DNA of 64,000 nt, from NCBI GenBank assembly GCA_039033415.1, contig JBCCCR010000005.1, positions 62,001 through 126,000 on the forward strand, written 5' to 3'. The stretch is from Pseudomonadota bacterium (GTDB lineage Bacteria; Pseudomonadota; Gammaproteobacteria; Xanthomonadales; SZUA-38). Made by a program: the position numbers and the translations under genes. Below, piece after piece: positions 2,005-48,253 of this stretch. A model generated the notes under the pieces. The model saw nothing but the letters and a program-made list of their open reading frames with translations, made no database searches and had not been told where the DNA came from. The first letter of the stretch is position 1, and each line of letters opens with the position of its first letter.

Positions 2005-3369
2005 ATGCGCCTGACCCGGAATCGATCCAAGACCGCCGACACCCCCCGCCGCGCTCTAACTCCCTGGCCCGTCATACTGCTGCTGGCTCTACCCGGAGCC
2101 ACGTGTCTCGCCGGCTCCACTTACGAACCGGGACAGCCAGCCACGATGGATCTGGCCGAAGTGGCCCAGGGGCTGGGCGACAACGGCCAGATTTTTCCTA
2201 CAGACCTCGTGGCGTTCCCTGACGGCTCCGGCCGCCTGCTGATCAGCACACTGGGAGGCAGCATACGGTTAATCGACGGCGCGCTAACGGCCACGCCCTA
2301 TATCGATACGGTCAGCGACGACACCATCAACGCGGAAAACGGCAACGCTTCGTTTGGCCTTACCACCGTGGCCTTTCACCCCGATTTTGCCAACGTGGGA
2401 ACGTCGGGGTTCGGTCGCCTGTACACCGTTGAACCCGAGGTCACCCGGGCCAATCCACCGCCGGATTTTCCTGGTATTCGCAATGATTTTGTCGGCGGCA
2501 ACAATCCGGCCCACGATCGGGTGCTCTATGAGTATCGGGCCGACTCGCTCGGCGCTAACGCGTTTGCCGGACTAAAGCGGGAGGTGCTGCGAATCCATGA
2601 GCATCGACGCGGGCACGACGTGAACGACCTGGCGTTTGACGCCGGCGGCTACCTGTACATCGCCGTCGGCGACACGGTGATCAGCGGCAGCGCCCAGGAG
2701 CTGGACAACGTGTTCGGCACCATTATGAGAATCGATCCGCTCGCGCCGGAGCAAACGCCAGGCAGCACCGATCCGGTGAGCGACAACGGCGCGTATCGCG
2801 TACCCGCCGACAATCCGTTTTTGAGCACCGCCGACGCGGTACCAGAGATTTTTGCGTACGGACTGCGCAACCCGTTTCGCATTTTTGTCGACCCGCTCAC
2901 CGACGAACTGTGGGTCAGCAGCAACGGGGCAAGCTCACGCGAGTCGGTCTATCAGGTCAGCCTTGGCGACAACCTCGGCTGGCCGTTCTTTGAAGGAACG
3001 CGACAGAACAATCCGCCGCCAGCGGGGTTTAGCTACGTGCCTCCAGTCTTTGAATACACCCACAGTCTCGGGCAGTCCGTGACCGGTGTTGTTGTCTATA
3101 GCGGCAGCAACCTGTCGGGGCTCACGGGCCGGGTGGTCTTCAGCGACTTTCTCGGGAGCGGCTCGGGGGGCGCCCGCGTGTTTTACGGTGACCCCGAAAC
3201 GGGTGTCTATTCCGACCTTGAGGCCAGCGGCCCGGTTGAGCTGCCCTCAACGCTTGTCTCCATCGGCCTGGACCAGGCGGGGGAGATGTACTTCCTCGGC
3301 GGGGACGGTCGCGTCCTGGGCACCAACCCGGACGGCCTCCTGTTTCGAAATGGCTTCGAAAGCAATTAA
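2005..3369 (+). CDS. Secreted PQQ-dependent sugar dehydrogenase-like protein (GSDH family)
   Basis: 454 residues. A signal peptide (hydrophobic WPVILLLALPGATCLAG, about residues 22-38) is followed by a six-bladed beta-propeller of the glucose/sorbosone dehydrogenase family. Typical motifs are RGHDVNDLAFDAGGYLYIAV, YGLRNPFRIFVDP and LGWPFFEG. Family members oxidise aldose sugars in the periplasm with PQQ, but this is inferred and no PQQ genes are in view. The protein ends with the tail LFRNGFESN, shared in form with three other secreted proteins in this window. The gene stands alone between rarD (divergent) and a cluster of hairpins. The start is the ATG after a weak GAGGTAAGCC ribosome site. 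Confidence 0.82.
   Translation: MRLTRNRSKTADTPRRALTPWPVILLLALPGATCLAGSTYEPGQPATMDLAEVAQGLGDNGQIFPTDLVAFPDGSGRLLISTLGGSIRLIDGALTATPYIDTVSDDTINAENGNASFGLTTVAFHPDFANVGTSGFGRLYTVEPEVTRANPPPDFPGIRNDFVGGNNPAHDRVLYEYRADSLGANAFAGLKREVLRIHEHRRGHDVNDLAFDAGGYLYIAVGDTVISGSAQELDNVFGTIMRIDPLAPEQTPGSTDPVSDNGAYRVPADNPFLSTADAVPEIFAYGLRNPFRIFVDPLTDELWVSSNGASSRESVYQVSLGDNLGWPFFEGTRQNNPPPAGFSYVPPVFEYTHSLGQSVTGVVVYSGSNLSGLTGRVVFSDFLGSGSGGARVFYGDPETGVYSDLEASGPVELPSTLVSIGLDQAGEMYFLGGDGRVLGTNPDGLLFRNGFESN
3340..3366 (+). other. C-terminal NGFE tail of the sugar dehydrogenase-like protein
   Basis: The last nine residues read LFRNGFESN. The pattern hydrophobic-F-x-(D/N)-G-F-E at the extreme C-terminus recurs at 34779-34802, 50536-50568 and 54183-54203 on otherwise unrelated secreted proteins. 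No transmembrane helix or basic cluster follows, so it is not a PEP-CTERM or GlyGly-CTERM type signal. Confidence 0.7.
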
Positions 3370-3421
3370 CAGACTGCTGAAAAAGCCATCCATGGCCCAT
3401 GTTTATGGAGATGGCAACGAC

Positions 3422-3504
3422 GCCAAGTGAAAAATGCGATTTTCACTTGGCTCACATTTTCAATGGCTTTTAGCCATCGAAAATGTCGGCACATCCATGT
3501 GCCG
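3422..3504. repeat. Cluster of three adjacent hairpins, REP- or MITE-like
   Basis: Three palindromes lie back to back between the sugar dehydrogenase-like gene and def. Arms 3422-3433 and 3440-3451 form a perfect 12-bp stem. Arms around 3453-3466 and 3472-3485 form a 14-bp stem with one mismatch (ACATTTTCAATGGC). Arms 3487-3494 and 3497-3504 form a perfect 8-bp stem (CGGCACAT) with a 2-base loop. None is followed by a T-run, so simple termination is doubtful. The stretch just upstream (ACAGACTGCTGAAAAAGCC, from 3369) also resembles ends of short repeats. Multi-copy nature is inferred. Confidence 0.65.
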
Positions 3505-3527
3505 AGCGCAGCACTCCGCGCGGCCCT

Positions 3528-4136
3528 CTAACGTTCGAGGCTGGTGCGACCGGGCTGGGTGCTGAAGGCTCCGGGCGACGGCCAGTGCGGCTGCCAGCTA
3601 TCGCGTTTGGCGAGCAGCGCGTCGGACAGGAGAAAGCGAGGGTCGGTGATACGCGTCGGCATCAGAACCCCATCCAAGTGATCCAGTTCGTGCTGGAACA
3701 CGCGCGCCGCAAAACCCTCCAGGCGGGCCGCGGCCGGCTCACCATGCGCGTTCAGCCCGCTGACCTCAATCTCCGCCGGTCGCGAGACCCAGCCTCGCAA
3801 GCCGGGCACTGAAAGGCATCCTTCCCAGGCCCAGCATGAACCGCTGCTGGTATCGATCACCGGATTGACCCAGAACTGAAGCGGAAACGCCTCCGCATCC
3901 GGATAGCGATCGTTGACGCCGCTGATTCCTAAACAAAACACCCGCGCTGCCCAGCCGACCTGCGGCGCCGCGATACCGATACCGCCGTAGGCATCCATAC
4001 AGCGGGCCAGCGTGTCGAGACGATCAGACCAATCGTCTGCCGCAATGTCCTCCGCTGATACCGCCGGCTGCGGCTCCATCAGCGAGGCCTCACCCCAAAA
4101 CACCAGGCCAGGCAGGTCCGGCGTCGAAGCTACCAC
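3528..4136 (-). CDS. def: Peptide deformylase
   Basis: 202 residues. All three deformylase motifs are present: GIGIAAPQVG, EGCLSVPG (metal-ligand Cys) and QHELDHLDG (HExxH, two His ligands and catalytic Glu). The enzyme removes the formyl group from N-terminal fMet in the cytoplasm. The GTG start at 4134-4136 overlaps the end of the preceding DUF2855 gene by 7 bases, so the pair is translationally coupled. An internal Met at residue 20 would cut into the conserved first strand, so the GTG is preferred. It is not next to fmt or a rRNA locus, and its N-terminal region (VFWGEASLMEP) is unusual, so this is probably a second deformylase rather than the main housekeeping copy. Confidence 0.9.
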   Translation of the reverse strand: MVASTPDLPGLVFWGEASLMEPQPAVSAEDIAADDWSDRLDTLARCMDAYGGIGIAAPQVGWAARVFCLGISGVNDRYPDAEAFPLQFWVNPVIDTSSGSCWAWEGCLSVPGLRGWVSRPAEIEVSGLNAHGEPAAARLEGFAARVFQHELDHLDGVLMPTRITDPRFLLSDALLAKRDSWQPHWPSPGAFSTQPGRTSLER

Positions 4137-40630: not shown

Positions 40631-41653
40631 ATGAAGCTTCGACAACTCGAATACCTCCTGGCCATCGTCGACAACGGTTTGAATATCACCGCTGCCGCCG
40701 AGCGGCTCTACACCTCACAACCGGGGGTCAGCAAACAGATCCGCTTGCTGGAAGACGAGCTGGGCTTCACGCTGTTCGCCCGCAAGGGCAAAGCGCTCGG
40801 GTCGCTGACTGCCGAGGGCAGCCAGGTGGTGGATCGGGCCCGCCGGGTGCTGCAGGAGGTGCAGCACATCCGGTCGCTGTCGGACGAGATCTATCACCAG
40901 AAGCGCGGCGCACTGCATATCGGCACGACCCACACCCAGGCCCGCTACGTGCTGCCAGAGGTGATCAACGCGTTCCGCCAGCAGTATCCGAATGTGTCGC
41001 TCAATCTGCATCAGGGCACCAGTGAACAGATCGCGGACATGGTCACCGAAAAGCAGGTGGACTTCGCTATCGCCACCGGCGCCCATTCGCTCTTCCCTTC
41101 GCTCGTGATGCTGCCCTGCTACCGGTGGGATCGGTCGATCATCGTGCCGACCGACCACGAGCTTGCGCAGGACGACGAACCACTGACGCTCGAACGGCTG
41201 GCGCAGTTTCCGCTGGTGACCTACGTCTTCAGCTTTAGCGGTGAATCGTCGCTCAAGCGGGCCTTCACGGATCGAGGGCTGGTGCCCGAGGTGGTGTTCA
41301 CGGCACGCGACGCCGATGTGATCAAGACTTACGTGAAGATGGGCATGGGCGTGGGCATCATCGCCTCGATGGCACAAGACTGCGAAGAGAGCGGCCTAAA
41401 GGCGCTGGAGATTCCCGGACTGTTCCCACGCTCCACGACCTGGATCGGGTTCCGCCGCGATACGGTGCTGACCAAGTTTATGTACGACTTTATCGAAGGG
41501 TTTGCGCCGCACCTCGATCAGGACCGAGTTCGGGAAGCAGTTCAGCTTCCGGAGCAGACCGACATTGAATCGCTGTTCGAGGGCACTACGTTACCACTTA
41601 AGGGGCGCTGCGCCGAGGACGTGGCGGAAGCGGAGTACGCCGCCACGCAGTAA
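40631..41653 (+). CDS. cysB: LysR-family regulator CysB
   Basis: 340 residues. Winged helix 1-60 (MKLRQLEYLLAIV, AERLYTSQPGVSKQIRLLE) and the CysB-type ligand domain, where IGTTHTQARYVLPEV and DFAIATGAHSLFPSLVMLPC are almost as in E. coli, as are VFTARDADVIKTYVKMGMG. It activates cysteine genes with N-acetylserine. The 148 bases up to cysG contain AT-rich sequence (GATTTGGTTATATTGGACC) suited to a divergent promoter. The tRNA-Val gene follows. Confidence 0.95.
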   Translation: MKLRQLEYLLAIVDNGLNITAAAERLYTSQPGVSKQIRLLEDELGFTLFARKGKALGSLTAEGSQVVDRARRVLQEVQHIRSLSDEIYHQKRGALHIGTTHTQARYVLPEVINAFRQQYPNVSLNLHQGTSEQIADMVTEKQVDFAIATGAHSLFPSLVMLPCYRWDRSIIVPTDHELAQDDEPLTLERLAQFPLVTYVFSFSGESSLKRAFTDRGLVPEVVFTARDADVIKTYVKMGMGVGIIASMAQDCEESGLKALEIPGLFPRSTTWIGFRRDTVLTKFMYDFIEGFAPHLDQDRVREAVQLPEQTDIESLFEGTTLPLKGRCAEDVAEAEYAATQ

Positions 41654-41709: not shown

Positions 41710-41785
41710 GGGCGATTAGCTCAGTTGGGAGAGCGCTGCAGTCACATTGCAGAGGTCACTGGTTCGAGCCCAGTATCGCCCACCA
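41710..41785 (+). tRNA. tRNA-Val(CAC)
   Basis: 76 bases with encoded CCA. Acceptor GGGCGAT pairs with ATCGCCC, D arm TTAGCTCAGTTGGGAGAG, anticodon stem CTGCA/TGCAG around loop GTCACAT (anticodon CAC, valine GTG codon), and T arm CTGGTTCGAGCCCAG. The 3' part (41741-41785) is copied at 44618-44662 and serves as an attachment site. Confidence 0.97.
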
Positions 41786-42384
41786 ATCAATTCAATCGGA
41801 TAGACAATTCTCTGCTTTGAACAGCCTTCCATACGAAGGGATTTAAGAGGACTTTTCATCCGTCCCTCGGATCATCGTCAGGGTTGGCGACTCAGCTTCG
41901 CTAACAAGTCGATCTGCTGAAATGTTTGTGGCGTGACATGCCCGCTTTTGAACGGACGTGGCACTGAGTCCTGGCCCATTGCATTAGGAATCCCTGGTTT
42001 TTCGGGTAGAAGTGATTGACTCGAATCTCGTTGCTCTCGAAAACGATGTCACTTTCGCTGAAGGTTGCTTGAGCGACAACGCCGCCTGCTAACGATAATC
42101 CGATCAATCAGGCAGGCAGCGTTCGCCGGCCCGCAGGGATAGATGCCCTTTTTTTATCTCAGAAAAGTGAACCGCGCCTAGCAACGAGCGAGATATTGCA
42201 ATTCCAAGTCAGCCGACTGTGATCGAATACACGAAGCTCAAAGACCGCTCGATCTCGCGCAGACGATCTCCTTACCCACGGGAAGAACGGAGCTGGTCAT
42301 TCGTCGATCGATCATAGATTGCGGTAATGCGTCGGCAAACTGCCGACCATTTTCGGTTTCCGGTTCTGCCGGTGGCGGCTATCG
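41786..42384. other. Gene-poor stretch inside the island
   Basis: Six hundred bases without a convincing gene. A minus-strand frame of 68 codons (41901-42107) has a TTG start directly after an in-frame stop, begins like a signal peptide (GLSLAGGVVAQA) and then has no recognisable domain; it may be a gene remnant. No integrase relic was recognised. Confidence 0.5.
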
Positions 42385-43308
42385 CTAGCTCGCTGGCTTG
42401 CGCATCGCTTTGAAGCGATCGAAATTGCGGACCACGCCTTCCCAAGGGTCAGCCTTGTCGAAGTAGTTGCTTTGTTCCTTTTCGATGTAGCTGAGCAGCG
42501 GCCGCGGCGCATCTTGGTAGCTGCGCAGCTTGGCTCCGACGCCGCGCCACATCACAAACCCCGGCTTTCCATCCATCAAGAGCCAAGGTTCCCACGACAA
42601 TACGGACGACCAAAAAAGCGTGTAGTCGGCCTGAGTAAGCTCAGGGTTGGCGAGTTGGTCGACTGTCGATGAGTAGGTCGTCTCGCTGGCAAAACGAAAT
42701 GCGTCACCCGATGATTCACGGGGCCAGGTTTCCCGCGGCAACGGAGACGGAAATTCGCCGCCACCGCCCTCCGTTAGCCAGATCTGATTACCCAGGGATT
42801 GCCAATCCAGGTCATACGGTTTTGCTTCCTGAGTGTCCCCTTCCCCGGATATGGCTGATAGGCCCGCTTCGGTGAACAGCTGCTCGCCACCGCCATACTT
42901 ATAGTGGAATGGCTCCACCGTTTCTCCGGTGAACGGATTGACCATCGTATCGATCGGTTCGCCGCTTTCCAGATCACTGAAGTAGCCAACGTCGAACGAT
43001 TTGCGGCGATAGCTTTGGCCCTTTGGATTCCATTGGTGGCGAGCAAGACCGCCGAAACCACACAGCGCTTCAGGGACTCGGTCAGGCGCCATGCCCCACA
43101 AAGTGCCAGAAAAAGCGACATAGACATTCGACTCCCTGAGGCTCCCCAACAGTTTGATGTAGTTGTTGAGGATTCCGCCGGGTGTCGCCAAATCCAGGCT
43201 CTTAAGGCCTTGCGCATTTGCCGCTGAGTCGATGCCCACGGTCATTGCAAGGCCTAGGCCAGCCCCAGACTGCAACAAAGTGCGGCGCTTCATGGTAGCA
43301 ATTGACAT
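42385..43308 (-). CDS. DUF1838 family protein, Tat-exported
   Basis: 307 residues. Signal with Tat-like MKRRTLLQSGAGLGLAMTVG; the ATG 43308 has GGGAG 6 bases upstream. The domain (FSGTLWGMAPDRVPEALCGF, and YTLFWSSVLSWEPWLLMDG) is DUF1838, a periplasmic family with no known function that is often near TonB-dependent receptors and steroid or aromatic catabolism genes in oligotrophs. It lies within the tRNA-Val island. Confidence 0.82.
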   Translation of the reverse strand: MSIATMKRRTLLQSGAGLGLAMTVGIDSAANAQGLKSLDLATPGGILNNYIKLLGSLRESNVYVAFSGTLWGMAPDRVPEALCGFGGLARHQWNPKGQSYRRKSFDVGYFSDLESGEPIDTMVNPFTGETVEPFHYKYGGGEQLFTEAGLSAISGEGDTQEAKPYDLDWQSLGNQIWLTEGGGGEFPSPLPRETWPRESSGDAFRFASETTYSSTVDQLANPELTQADYTLFWSSVLSWEPWLLMDGKPGFVMWRGVGAKLRSYQDAPRPLLSYIEKEQSNYFDKADPWEGVVRNFDRFKAMRKPAS

Positions 43309-43516
43309 ACGTAGCTCCCGTTGAGCCTAGGTACGGTGTTTCTTCATCGAGTTGTTATGACGCTATGTCATTATAAGTAGGGGACGAAATCGCCTCTAGT
43401 CCAAGCGCCGGACGGTGTCTCGTGTAGCGTTACCGCGACCGCACCCCCCGGAGCGTTTAGGAATGAATACCCGTGTTCAGCCTTGTGCCTATCCTGGCCT
43501 TCGGCCACACCTTGAC

Positions 43517-44308
43517 CTAGAGCAACGCTTCAACTGCTCCTAGCATCGCTTGCCAGTCAGCCTCGAGTGCTTCAAGAGTCTTTCCTGTGACTGCTTCTAA
43601 GTCGGTGCCGTGATAGATCCGAAAATAGGCGTCCAAACCATAATTCTCAATCAGGAACTGCGTAAAGGCGCCTTCCTGAAGATAGGCAAGCTTACGACCG
43701 GTACGGCTTTTGGTTTTGCGCCGCGTCGCTTCGGTTTCGGCTAGCTTCAGGTAGCCACCATGTTCGGAAGCAACTCTGGCAGTCGCAACATAAAGATCCT
43801 CGCCAAAGTCCGGGTAATTGGGCGTGGGCCCAAACCTATGCTGAAGAAAGACAGCCAGACCATCGTCGTAGAATCGATCACGATTTTGGCGATTGAAGCT
43901 GGCGGCTAAGACATGCGTAATTTCGTGAATCAGGCCGATATCTGTGCGCCCATCTTTCACCTCGTTGTAGATATTCAGGATACGAGCTTCCGGCAGGCGA
44001 ATTGTTGCGCCTCGCTGGTAAGGGGTTTGCTGGTCAGGATCGATCAGGATCTCGATCGGCGTATCGTACGGCTCACCCGCATAGGTCTCCGCCTGAGCGA
44101 GAAAGGCTCTGACGACCGCAAACCCAGCTTCAGCCCGCGTCGCCACCATTTCGACTGCCTCGACCGGGATCGCCTTCGTGTAGCGCAAGGTAAGCTCGCC
44201 ATGAGTTTTCGTAAGTTCTAGCCCGCACGCAGCCAAAGGCGTGAGGCTCAGGATCAAGCCGAAAAAAACTAACCGATGCATGTGCATAGTCGACTCCAGA
44301 AATCTCAT
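43517..44308 (-). CDS. Metalloprotease-like lipoprotein (peptidase MA-like)
   Basis: 263 residues. A signal with lipobox (LTPLAAC) predicts a lipoprotein. The gluzincin-like LIHEITHVLA carries HExxH. The third-ligand site of this superfamily (usually EG) reads DDGLAVFL, so an Asp may replace Glu. Fold and activity are inferred. It is in the island next to the DUF1838 gene, same strand, 208 bases apart. Confidence 0.72.
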   Translation of the reverse strand: MRFLESTMHMHRLVFFGLILSLTPLAACGLELTKTHGELTLRYTKAIPVEAVEMVATRAEAGFAVVRAFLAQAETYAGEPYDTPIEILIDPDQQTPYQRGATIRLPEARILNIYNEVKDGRTDIGLIHEITHVLAASFNRQNRDRFYDDGLAVFLQHRFGPTPNYPDFGEDLYVATARVASEHGGYLKLAETEATRRKTKSRTGRKLAYLQEGAFTQFLIENYGLDAYFRIYHGTDLEAVTGKTLEALEADWQAMLGAVEALL

Positions 44309-44727
44309 CTCGCTGAGCGTAACCCATCAGATCAATAGATCAATGCTCGGCACCCAAGTCGCTTAGCCTCGGGTTGGCGTGTCGTTCGACCGATTCTTTG
44401 GCCTTCGCGGGGGCCAGCAAAGTTTTGGTCGACCAATTCGTATTGGGTCGGACGGCGAACTCTGAACCTGCCCCTCAAATTGACGCAGATTGGCTCACTC
44501 GGAAGAGGAGTATCGAAGGAACTCTGTTGGACCTAGTTGTACTTGGCTGTGCGAAATCCGCAACGGATCGCTCGAGAATGGCTAATAAAAACAATCAGTT
44601 AACGACACAATCGGGCTGTCACATTGCAGAGATCACTGGTTCGAGCCCAGTATCGCCCACCATCTCCAGTTGCCTGTGCTGACGCCGCTCAACACGATCT
44701 TGCGGCGTCGGCTGAGCCTATGCTCAC
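44309..44727. other. Right end of the island, no gene
   Basis: 419 bases between the protease-like gene and the DUF3237 gene. A plus-strand frame (44374-44682) runs through the tRNA copy, giving ITGSSPVSPT, the usual false translation of a tRNA 3' end; it is not a gene. The only feature seen is the attachment repeat. Confidence 0.6.
44618..44662 (+). repeat. Attachment-site copy of the tRNA-Val 3' end
   Basis: Forty-five bases that match 41741-41785 with one difference. It includes the anticodon-loop bases, T arm, acceptor 3' strand and CCA, but the tRNA 5' half is absent upstream, so it cannot be a tRNA gene. It is the distal repeat of the island. Confidence 0.88.
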
Positions 44728-45162
44728 TTACCGAACCTCAAACCATTCGTAGCGCATACTCGCGAGATCACCTTTACCGACCGCCTGGACACAGTTGAGC
44801 CAGCCGTAGCGTTTGTCGGAAGTTTCAAAGGTCGGGGCTACGTAAAACGGAGCAGAGCCGATTCCTTTTGTCACATCGGATCGCCCGCGATATTGAAGGT
44901 ATATGAGCGCGCCATCGTTCGTTTCGACCGTCGCTCGAACGTCGACTGTGGCAACGCCCCCCGCAACGGTCAGCCAGTCTGCGGCAGCGTCTCCAACCAG
45001 CTTCGCGTTCAGACGGTCGCCAGAGATTGCCATCGATAGGATGCGCACAACCGTACGATTGCCGCTCGGGCCCTCACCAATGGTTACCGGAGACGCGAGC
45101 GTGAGGTCGACGGCGCAAAGGGGAATCAGAACCGGATTTGAGGTCGAGCTAGTGTTCATCAT
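44728..45162 (-). CDS. DUF3237 family protein
   Basis: 144 residues. A small beta-barrel family protein, with IGEGPSGNRTVVRILSMAI, ATVDVRATVETNDGALIYLQ and FYVAPTFETSDKRYGWLNC as the conserved lines. The function is unknown; members are found with degradation genes of aromatic and steroid compounds. No signal peptide. It lies just outside the distal island repeat. Confidence 0.85.
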   Translation of the reverse strand: MMNTSSTSNPVLIPLCAVDLTLASPVTIGEGPSGNRTVVRILSMAISGDRLNAKLVGDAAADWLTVAGGVATVDVRATVETNDGALIYLQYRGRSDVTKGIGSAPFYVAPTFETSDKRYGWLNCVQAVGKGDLASMRYEWFEVR

Positions 45163-45220
45163 TCAATGGTACCAAGACACTGCGTCAGTGCTTCGGCGCC
45201 AGTTCTAGCGAAGAGGTCAA

Positions 45221-45315
45221 TAGCCGTGGGGTCAGGACCAAGAGCGAGGTCAATCTGTTACGGCTCGTTTCGGGGTTTCTTTCCTGTTCTTTGACTTGGC
45301 ACTTGGAGCCGACCC
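45221..45315. repeat. REP-like repeat, copy A
   Basis: Begins TAGCCGTGGGGTCAGGACC and ends in an imperfect inverted match (CACTTGGAGCCGACCC). About 80 bases align without large gaps to copy B at 46682-46762, including GTTACG, TTTCTTTCCTG and a terminal CTTGGC/CCTGGC. Palindromic ends with diverged arms suggest a decayed element of the REP/RAYT kind. Confidence 0.65.
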
Positions 45316-45382
45316 AGTTGCAATCTGAAACTGACGATTTGCCCGAGTAGTGAGAGCAACTAGGGCCATCCGCCAGTTAAGA

Positions 45383-45634
45383 TCAGGCGGCCATGTCTCG
45401 CAGGGTCCGCTGCAGGATTCGGTGTTCAGCCTCAAACACAGCAACAGACCAGTCGATGCCAGCCCGCTTGGCCACGTCGATCTTTAGCTCAAGATCGTGG
45501 AGCCGGCGCTCGACGTGAGGAACCAACTCTTTCGCTCGGATCTCGGCAGGCAGGTTTTTGCACAGAACCCCTATCAGGTAACTCTGTGCCATGACGGTGC
45601 CTTGTAGCGAAGGCATCGTTTCGTCTTCGATCAT
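45383..45634 (-). CDS. Small hypothetical protein
   Basis: 83 residues, no family recognised. Predicted mostly helical (LVPHVERRLHDLELKIDVA, VFEAEHRILQRTLRDMAA), cytoplasmic. Length and charge pattern look coding. A GGAG site is 11 bases before the ATG. It lies between two copies of the REP-like repeat, with the GST gene. Confidence 0.45.
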   Translation of the reverse strand: MIEDETMPSLQGTVMAQSYLIGVLCKNLPAEIRAKELVPHVERRLHDLELKIDVAKRAGIDWSVAVFEAEHRILQRTLRDMAA

Positions 45635-46984: not shown

Positions 46985-48253
46985 CTAGCGAAACCGCATG
47001 GCTTTCTCGGCGACCGGCGCCAAGGCCTGACACAGCGCCTCAGTGCCCGGAATAACCCGCTCGATGGGGAATTCGCCGGCACCACCCGCATCGAATGCGT
47101 AGGTCACGGTGGCAGCGTTGCAGCCCGAAAACTCGAACCGCATCGTGCCGACCGGCACCGTGTCTACCGCGGTTTCCTCGTCGAAGCGCCCACCGCTGGA
47201 CTGAAAGAGCATGGCGTCTACAGCGTTGCCTTGATAGTCGCCGCTGGCGGTATACCAGCGGGTAGACCCGTCGGCGCCTTCAGCATCATTGGCGTAGGTG
47301 AACCAGGCGGCGAAAAAAAACGCGCTGTCTGGGTTAACGTCCAGGAGCAGGCCTGATCCGCTGGTCACCGGGTAGAACCACGCGCCCGATACTCCCTGGT
47401 TGATTTCAAACGCATTGCCGTCAGAGAGGGTAATCGCTCGAACCCCTCCGTTGGCCTGGAATTCCGACACATAGACGGTGCCCAGATCGGGCGAGACCGT
47501 AATTCCATTGGTTCCCAGAAACGTGGCGGTAGCAGCGTCACCGTCGTTGGTTCCATTTTGCCCAGTGCCGGCGAGTTCGTTGATGGTGCCATCAAGCGTA
47601 ACGGTCACCACGCGATTGACACCGAGCGTGGCGTAAATGGTGTCGGCTCCTATGGCGATGTACCCAACCTGATTACCGGGTTGGGCGATGAGTGTTTGAT
47701 TCCCATCACCGTCAAAGCGAATGATCTTTCCGTCGTTAAAATTTCCGGTGTAGAGCCGCCCCTGGCTGTCAAAGGCCACGCCTGCGGGCCCGTTGATCTC
47801 CCCCCCGCTGGCAAAGACCGAGACAGTGCCGTCCGAGGCGACGCGGGAGATGCGGCTGAGATTGTAATCCGCCACAAAGAGGTCGCCGCCCTCATCAAAC
47901 ACCAGGCCTGCGGCCAAAGAAAATCCGGTGGCGTAGTTGGACGTCTGCCCGTCCGGCGTACGCTGCACCACACGTTGACTGCTGGAAACATAAAAGTTGC
48001 CGTCGCCGTCGAATACGGTGCCAAGCGGAAATTCCAGATTGGTCAGAAAGGTCTGCACATCACCATCAGTAATGCGAAACACCCGATTGCCATTGGGTTG
48101 GGACACGTAGACTGACCCGTCAGGCCCCACCTCCAGCCCGTCAAGGCCGCCCTGGCCTGTGGTGATCGTCGAGACGGTTGTTGCCCCAGTGGATCCTGCT
48201 GCCCCAATCGCCACGCACAACACACCCGCCGCCAAAATTCTCTTTAGATTCAT
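46985..48253 (-). CDS. Secreted NHL-type beta-propeller protein
   Basis: 422 residues. Signal peptide (AAGVLCVAIGAAGSTGA, about 8-24). Blades of an NHL/SMP-30-like propeller follow (about 30-290), each with a GPDGSVYVS / DSQGRLYTG / PDLGTVYVSE-type strand. The C-terminal domain (about 305-420) starts VSGAWFYPVTSGSGLLLDV, has FFFAAWFTYAN and ends with two Cys residues. This C-terminal domain occurs on secreted proteins of Xanthomonadales-like bacteria and has no name that I know. Start ATG at 48253. Confidence 0.75.
   Translation of the reverse strand: MNLKRILAAGVLCVAIGAAGSTGATTVSTITTGQGGLDGLEVGPDGSVYVSQPNGNRVFRITDGDVQTFLTNLEFPLGTVFDGDGNFYVSSSQRVVQRTPDGQTSNYATGFSLAAGLVFDEGGDLFVADYNLSRISRVASDGTVSVFASGGEINGPAGVAFDSQGRLYTGNFNDGKIIRFDGDGNQTLIAQPGNQVGYIAIGADTIYATLGVNRVVTVTLDGTINELAGTGQNGTNDGDAATATFLGTNGITVSPDLGTVYVSEFQANGGVRAITLSDGNAFEINQGVSGAWFYPVTSGSGLLLDVNPDSAFFFAAWFTYANDAEGADGSTRWYTASGDYQGNAVDAMLFQSSGGRFDEETAVDTVPVGTMRFEFSGCNAATVTYAFDAGGAGEFPIERVIPGTEALCQALAPVAEKAMRFR

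Follow-up and report, generated by a model that had tools for sequence, protein, structure and literature searches.

tRNA genes are known landing sites of mobile DNA, and crossover within the anticodon loop is common among tyrosine integrases; a standard insertion leaves the old chromosomal flank outside the distal repeat. In the Islander collection of tDNA genomic islands, the anticodon loop is among the crossover subsites, with 2083 of the 3919 islands being anticodon-centred (PMC4383910). Some elements are defined by what they have lost: cis-mobilizable elements (CIMEs; Pavlovic et al. 2004; definition in PMC5704250) retain attL and attR without the genes for integration and transfer.

The locus described here lies in a 64,000-nucleotide stretch of genome G000 (C5:62001-126000; hereinafter, the window). 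It resembles the Islander islands in combining a tRNA gene with a displaced, co-oriented 3' fragment and an anticodon-centred crossover but differs in that the interval lacks the integrase that Islander requires for an active island (PMC4383910). With the CIMEs, the locus shares the retention of attL and attR in the absence of integration and transfer genes; unlike in a typical CIME, however, the interior is partly replaced, and a parent ICE or IME and mobility in cis or trans are hypothetical. Going by sequence, the locus is best read as a CIME-like relic under the PMC5704250 definition, possibly descended from an ICE or IME.

A displaced 3' end of tRNA-Val(CAC)

The target gene and the two copies of its 3' part are as follows.

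41710..41785, + strand: tRNA-Val(CAC), predicted by ARAGORN, the putative regenerated attB target
41738..41785, + strand: attL-type core, the 3' part of the tRNA from the anticodon loop to CCA; 48-nt direct repeat with a start identical to those in G009 and G003
44615..44662, + strand: attR-type core, the displaced tRNA-Val 3' end, with a G to A change at 44632

A repeat search recovered the 48-nt direct pair (41738-41785 and 44615-44662; 96% identity, two mismatches, 2877 bases apart), in agreement with the original prediction that the last 45 nt of the tRNA gene (41741-41785) recur at 44618-44662 with one mismatch. When up to 3 mismatches are allowed, the 43-nt core matches two sites in the 6.4-Mb genome, both in this pair, and the reversed control pattern matches none. 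Shuffling of all surveyed loci yielded no match longer than 13 nt, so that a chance origin of the repeat is excluded.

The displaced copy has the same orientation as the tRNA gene, as is characteristic of tDNA islands, and the anticodon loop contains the start of the repeat, which is also that of the 48-nt pair of G009 and of the displaced copy of G003. Given this start and the presence in G009 of an integrase-encoding element between the same two repeats, the pair is, by its sequence features, of the attL/attR type. This assignment, also part of the original prediction, is further supported by the homology of the distal inner arm to that of G003 and by the lack of the interval genes at the corresponding locus of the sister species (see below).

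Two cargo genes and no integrase in the interval

The region between the repeats contains two genes only, with genes for integration and transfer absent.

42385..43308, - strand: DUF1838 protein, 307 aa (PF08894), cargo; no ortholog at the G001 locus
43517..44308, - strand: 263-aa lipobox protein with an HExxH motif, cargo; patchy distribution

The initial description named the products as a DUF1838 protein and a metalloprotease-like lipoprotein. The former matches PF08894 (E-value 1.5e-19) and has a weak Tat signal; its paralogues elsewhere in G000 and in the sister species G001 are distant (30% at most). The latter contains a lipobox and an HExxH motif (H128, E129, H132) that is invariant across 12 aligned sequences; it matches no Pfam family and no PDB entry. 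This protein is encoded in 3 of the 299 genomes of the order, in scattered Alteromonadales and in one Longimicrobiales MAG, a sporadic occurrence that suggests probable horizontal spread. It was not found in phages or plasmids, and among the loci of its homologues in other orders, one includes a tRNA gene (3.2 kb away) and none an integrase match.

The predicted absence of an integrase was borne out: the interval has no integrase ORF, and tblastn with the integrases of G000 and related genomes detected no relic, which also led us to reject an integrase remnant in the 600-bp non-coding stretch. Having no integrase, regulators or packaging genes, the interval does not qualify as a PICI-like phage satellite. 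An integron gene cassette was likewise rejected, because no attC-like sites flank the interval genes; none of the short-range inverted repeats of the interval resembles the attC-like repeats of the integron of G000 itself. The G+C content is 0.52-0.58, compared to 0.59-0.67 upstream, but the drop continues rightward beyond the interval, so that an island-specific composition is not indicated.

Integrases of the host genome

The original prediction proposed searching the genome for a tyrosine integrase that matches this tRNA end. The PF00589 profile has 13 matches in G000, none of which is linked to tRNA-Val(CAC); because the genome consists of 62 contigs and is 98.7% complete, the absence of a cognate integrase is not absolute. 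Eight of the matches adjoin genes for tRNA-Met, -Lys, -Thr, -Arg, -Phe, -Asn and -Ser and for tmRNA (at a distance of about 1-2 kb for Ser and tmRNA), one is an integrase of the integron type, and one, truncated, sits in the tRNA-Phe island. Two matches of 330 and 329 aa with no tRNA nearby are probably Xer proteins; no tRNA gene lies within the stretch read around the intact integrase at C4:162871, and none is near an extra N-terminal integrase fragment on C40.

Two of these loci are of separate interest. The chromosomal integron (L100, G000:C38) encodes the integron-type tyrosine recombinase at 2736-3710 and includes at least four attC-like 51-nt repeats (at 891, 1239, 1693 and 2221) that are spaced by 350-530 bp. 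The tRNA-Phe island (L094, G000:C12; 5880-6317 and 15757-17029) encodes an intact integrase; the truncated copy is at a distance of 10.7 kb from it, with another tRNA-Phe 3' end behind it.

Comparison with the sister species

The within-genus comparison involves one other species, G001.

40631..41653, + strand: conserved LysR-family regulator (PF00126/PF03466) upstream of the tRNA, syntenic in G001
41786..41882, + strand: inner flank of attL, 78% identical to G001, with an IHF-like site at offset 4
44728..45162, - strand: DUF3237 gene (PF11578) outside the repeats, also absent from the G001 locus
45383..45634, - strand: conserved 83-aa protein (98.8% protein identity) at which synteny with G001 resumes

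The alignment with G001 (89% over 4.1 kb) covers the LysR gene, the tRNA and the 97 nt that follow it, and synteny resumes at 45379, with the gene for the 83-aa protein, and at 46987. The block in between (41883-45378), whose left boundary falls 97 nt inward of attL and whose right boundary falls 716 nt past attR, is missing in G001. Unrelated genes spanning 4.9 kb take its place there, orthologs of the two cargo genes are absent from the locus, and G001 also lacks the displaced tRNA end. As for an empty site in a close relative, the cargo is indeed absent from G001, but a precise empty site is not there, its place being taken by other DNA.

Because the flank beside the tRNA is common to both species, the left end of the element was already present in their common ancestor. 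The shared 97 nt and the overrun of attR by the missing block indicate that the event is old and that the interior has been replaced; for the same reasons, we rejected a recent, clean 2.9-kb insertion, and the originally claimed discrete insert of about that size is not supported. The displaced core has one mismatch in 46 positions, even though the flank diverged by about 20% between the species; the probability of this under neutral decay since the split is about 0.05, so that the core may be younger or preserved.

Short REP/REPIN-like palindromes (GGGGTCAGGACC...) occur near the boundaries of the variable blocks, at 45228, 46689 and 63685 in the window and at L033:5122-5219 on the G001 side.

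The arms of the two sites

The distal site consists of the core and two recognizable flanks.

44490..44614, + strand: inner arm at the distal site, with homology to the G003 arm and the motif GCAACGGATCG..AATAAAAACA at 44560-44593
44663..44732, + strand: flank on the outer side of the distal core, containing a strong GC-rich hairpin (fold z-score -4.26), absent from G001

Over some 120 nt, the inner arm can be aligned to its counterpart at a displaced tRNA-Val copy in G003, a member of another genus, at the same spacing from the core (0 of 1000 shuffles), and the GCAACGGATCG..AATAAAAACA motif has two matches in the 299 genomes, in the window and in G003 only. The outer flank is probably the original trailer of tRNA-Val; it shows no significant similarity to the outer flank in G003.

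On the tRNA side, a perfect IHF consensus (WATCAANNNNTTR) is separated from CCA by 4 nt in G001 and G009 and by 5 nt in G106, whereas the IHF-like site of the window has two mismatches. An exact consensus at 4-5 nt from CCA is thus found in 3 of the 19 tRNA flanks compared to 0.008 expected from shuffled flanks, in an argument that was framed after the sequences had been seen.

tRNA-Val(CAC) as a hotspot in relatives

In G009, an 11.8-kb element (L034:6399-18351) bounded by a 48-nt pair occupies tRNA-Val(CAC); the gene for its tyrosine integrase (PF00589 and an arm-binding domain) and the distal copy are about 950 bp apart. This element and the window locus have the same target and the same core start, and the IHF-like site beside attL has the same position in both, as it does in G001; by contrast, only the G009 element encodes the tyrosine integrase, GmrSD and DUF4365, and outside the core the arms of the two could not be aligned. 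The GmrSD and DUF4365-TPR genes (L034:11973-17765) perhaps comprise a defence island.

G003 contains two displaced tRNA-Val copies on a contig separate from its tRNA gene. One of these (att1, L036:9743-9791) resembles the distal site of the window in its homologous inner arm, equal spacing and the lack of an integrase on the contig but adjoins a TonB-receptor gene and has a more decayed core and an unrelated outer flank. The TonB receptor (L036:9972-12419) is 55% identical to that of G019. In G019 (L039:10481-15045) and G096 (L119:2421-6987), which represent two genera other than that of G003, a block of kinase, regulator and TonB-receptor genes is located beside tRNA-Val(CAC), and the G009 element occupies the place of this block, up to the outer flank found in G019.

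A different kind of repeat is present in G096 (L119:2069-2417) and G207 (L123:2070-2231), where units of 161-162 bp that include the last 25 nt of tRNA-Val are located just downstream of the gene, in tandem in G096; we take these to be reminiscent of the rtT repeats of E. coli tyrT. Two further candidates were set aside: the matching sequence where the TonB gene of G019 ends is probably a terminator hairpin, the simpler reading, rather than a tRNA relic, and the contig end at the tRNA in G034 is read as an assembly break rather than a proven second copy. The tRNA-Val core had no match in viral contigs.

Proposed origin and decay of the island

We consider it likely that the locus is a decayed tRNA-Val island that predates the species split and has lost its integrase and had its cargo replaced. 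Under this scenario, a tyrosine integrase would have inserted an element into tRNA-Val(CAC) through a crossover in the anticodon loop, such that the 3' half carried by the element regenerated the tRNA and the original 3' end was pushed to 44615-44662. The insertion would precede the split from G001, with the inner left end of the element kept in both species. Subsequently, the integrase would have been lost, presumably by deletion, and the interior replaced, with the genes for the DUF1838 protein and the lipoprotein coming to reside here and other genes in G001, which additionally would have lost the displaced tRNA end; the locus is presumably immobile at present. Of the two routes envisaged in the original prediction, deletion of the integrase is the one favoured by the repeat start in G009, the arm homology in G003 and the absence of the cargo from the G001 locus.

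The other route, in which the interval is a satellite mobilised in trans, is part of a broader alternative, namely, that this is a still mobile, integrase-less element (a CIME or a satellite) that uses the integrase of another element, either now or upon the occasional entry of a helper. The preservation of the core (45 of 46 positions), the conservation of the inner right arm in two genera next to different cargo with no integrase found near either, and the presence of a cognate-type integrase within the order, in G009, are all compatible with such mobility. Nevertheless, this alternative appears unlikely, considering that the search of G000 found no integrase with tRNA-Val(CAC) as its target, that the IHF-like site of the window is decayed relative to that of G001, that the variable block and the att pair have different boundaries, that no other copy of the interval was detected in four family genomes, and that neither phages and plasmids (for the lipoprotein) nor viral contigs (for the core) provided a match. 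Mobilisation of the interval in trans is accordingly no more than a possibility. We are slightly more doubtful still of a family-wide version, in which integrase-less elements share one type of att arm at tRNA-Val(CAC), transport unrelated cargo (a TonB receptor in one genus, the DUF1838 protein and lipoprotein in another) and are moved by an outside integrase.

The extent of the difference from G001, from inside attL to beyond attR, and the REP-like palindromes near the boundaries in both species could instead point to import of the entire 41883-45378 block, displaced end included, by homologous or illegitimate recombination from the tRNA-Val region of another strain, in which case the repeats never were the pair of a single element at this site; with no donor found and more steps needed than for the decay of a single insertion, this history seems very improbable. 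Marginally less probable again is that the 3' region of the tRNA was duplicated in tandem or rearranged. G096 and G207 show that short units with this tRNA end are duplicated in some members of the order, but those copies start elsewhere in the tRNA and are spaced by about 160 bp, with the trailer repeated as well in G096. By contrast, the copy in the window begins at the anticodon loop, is 2.9 kb from the tRNA gene and differs in its trailer, and its inner arm matches that of G003.

As a decayed tRNA island, the locus is of a known kind and, apart from the right arm that is common to two genera, an ordinary case. Relics of tRNA islands show that genes persist after the mobile machinery is lost, and the sharing of one right arm by two genera whose cargo differs provides a concrete test of whether exchange of integrase-less cargo still takes place at a single site.
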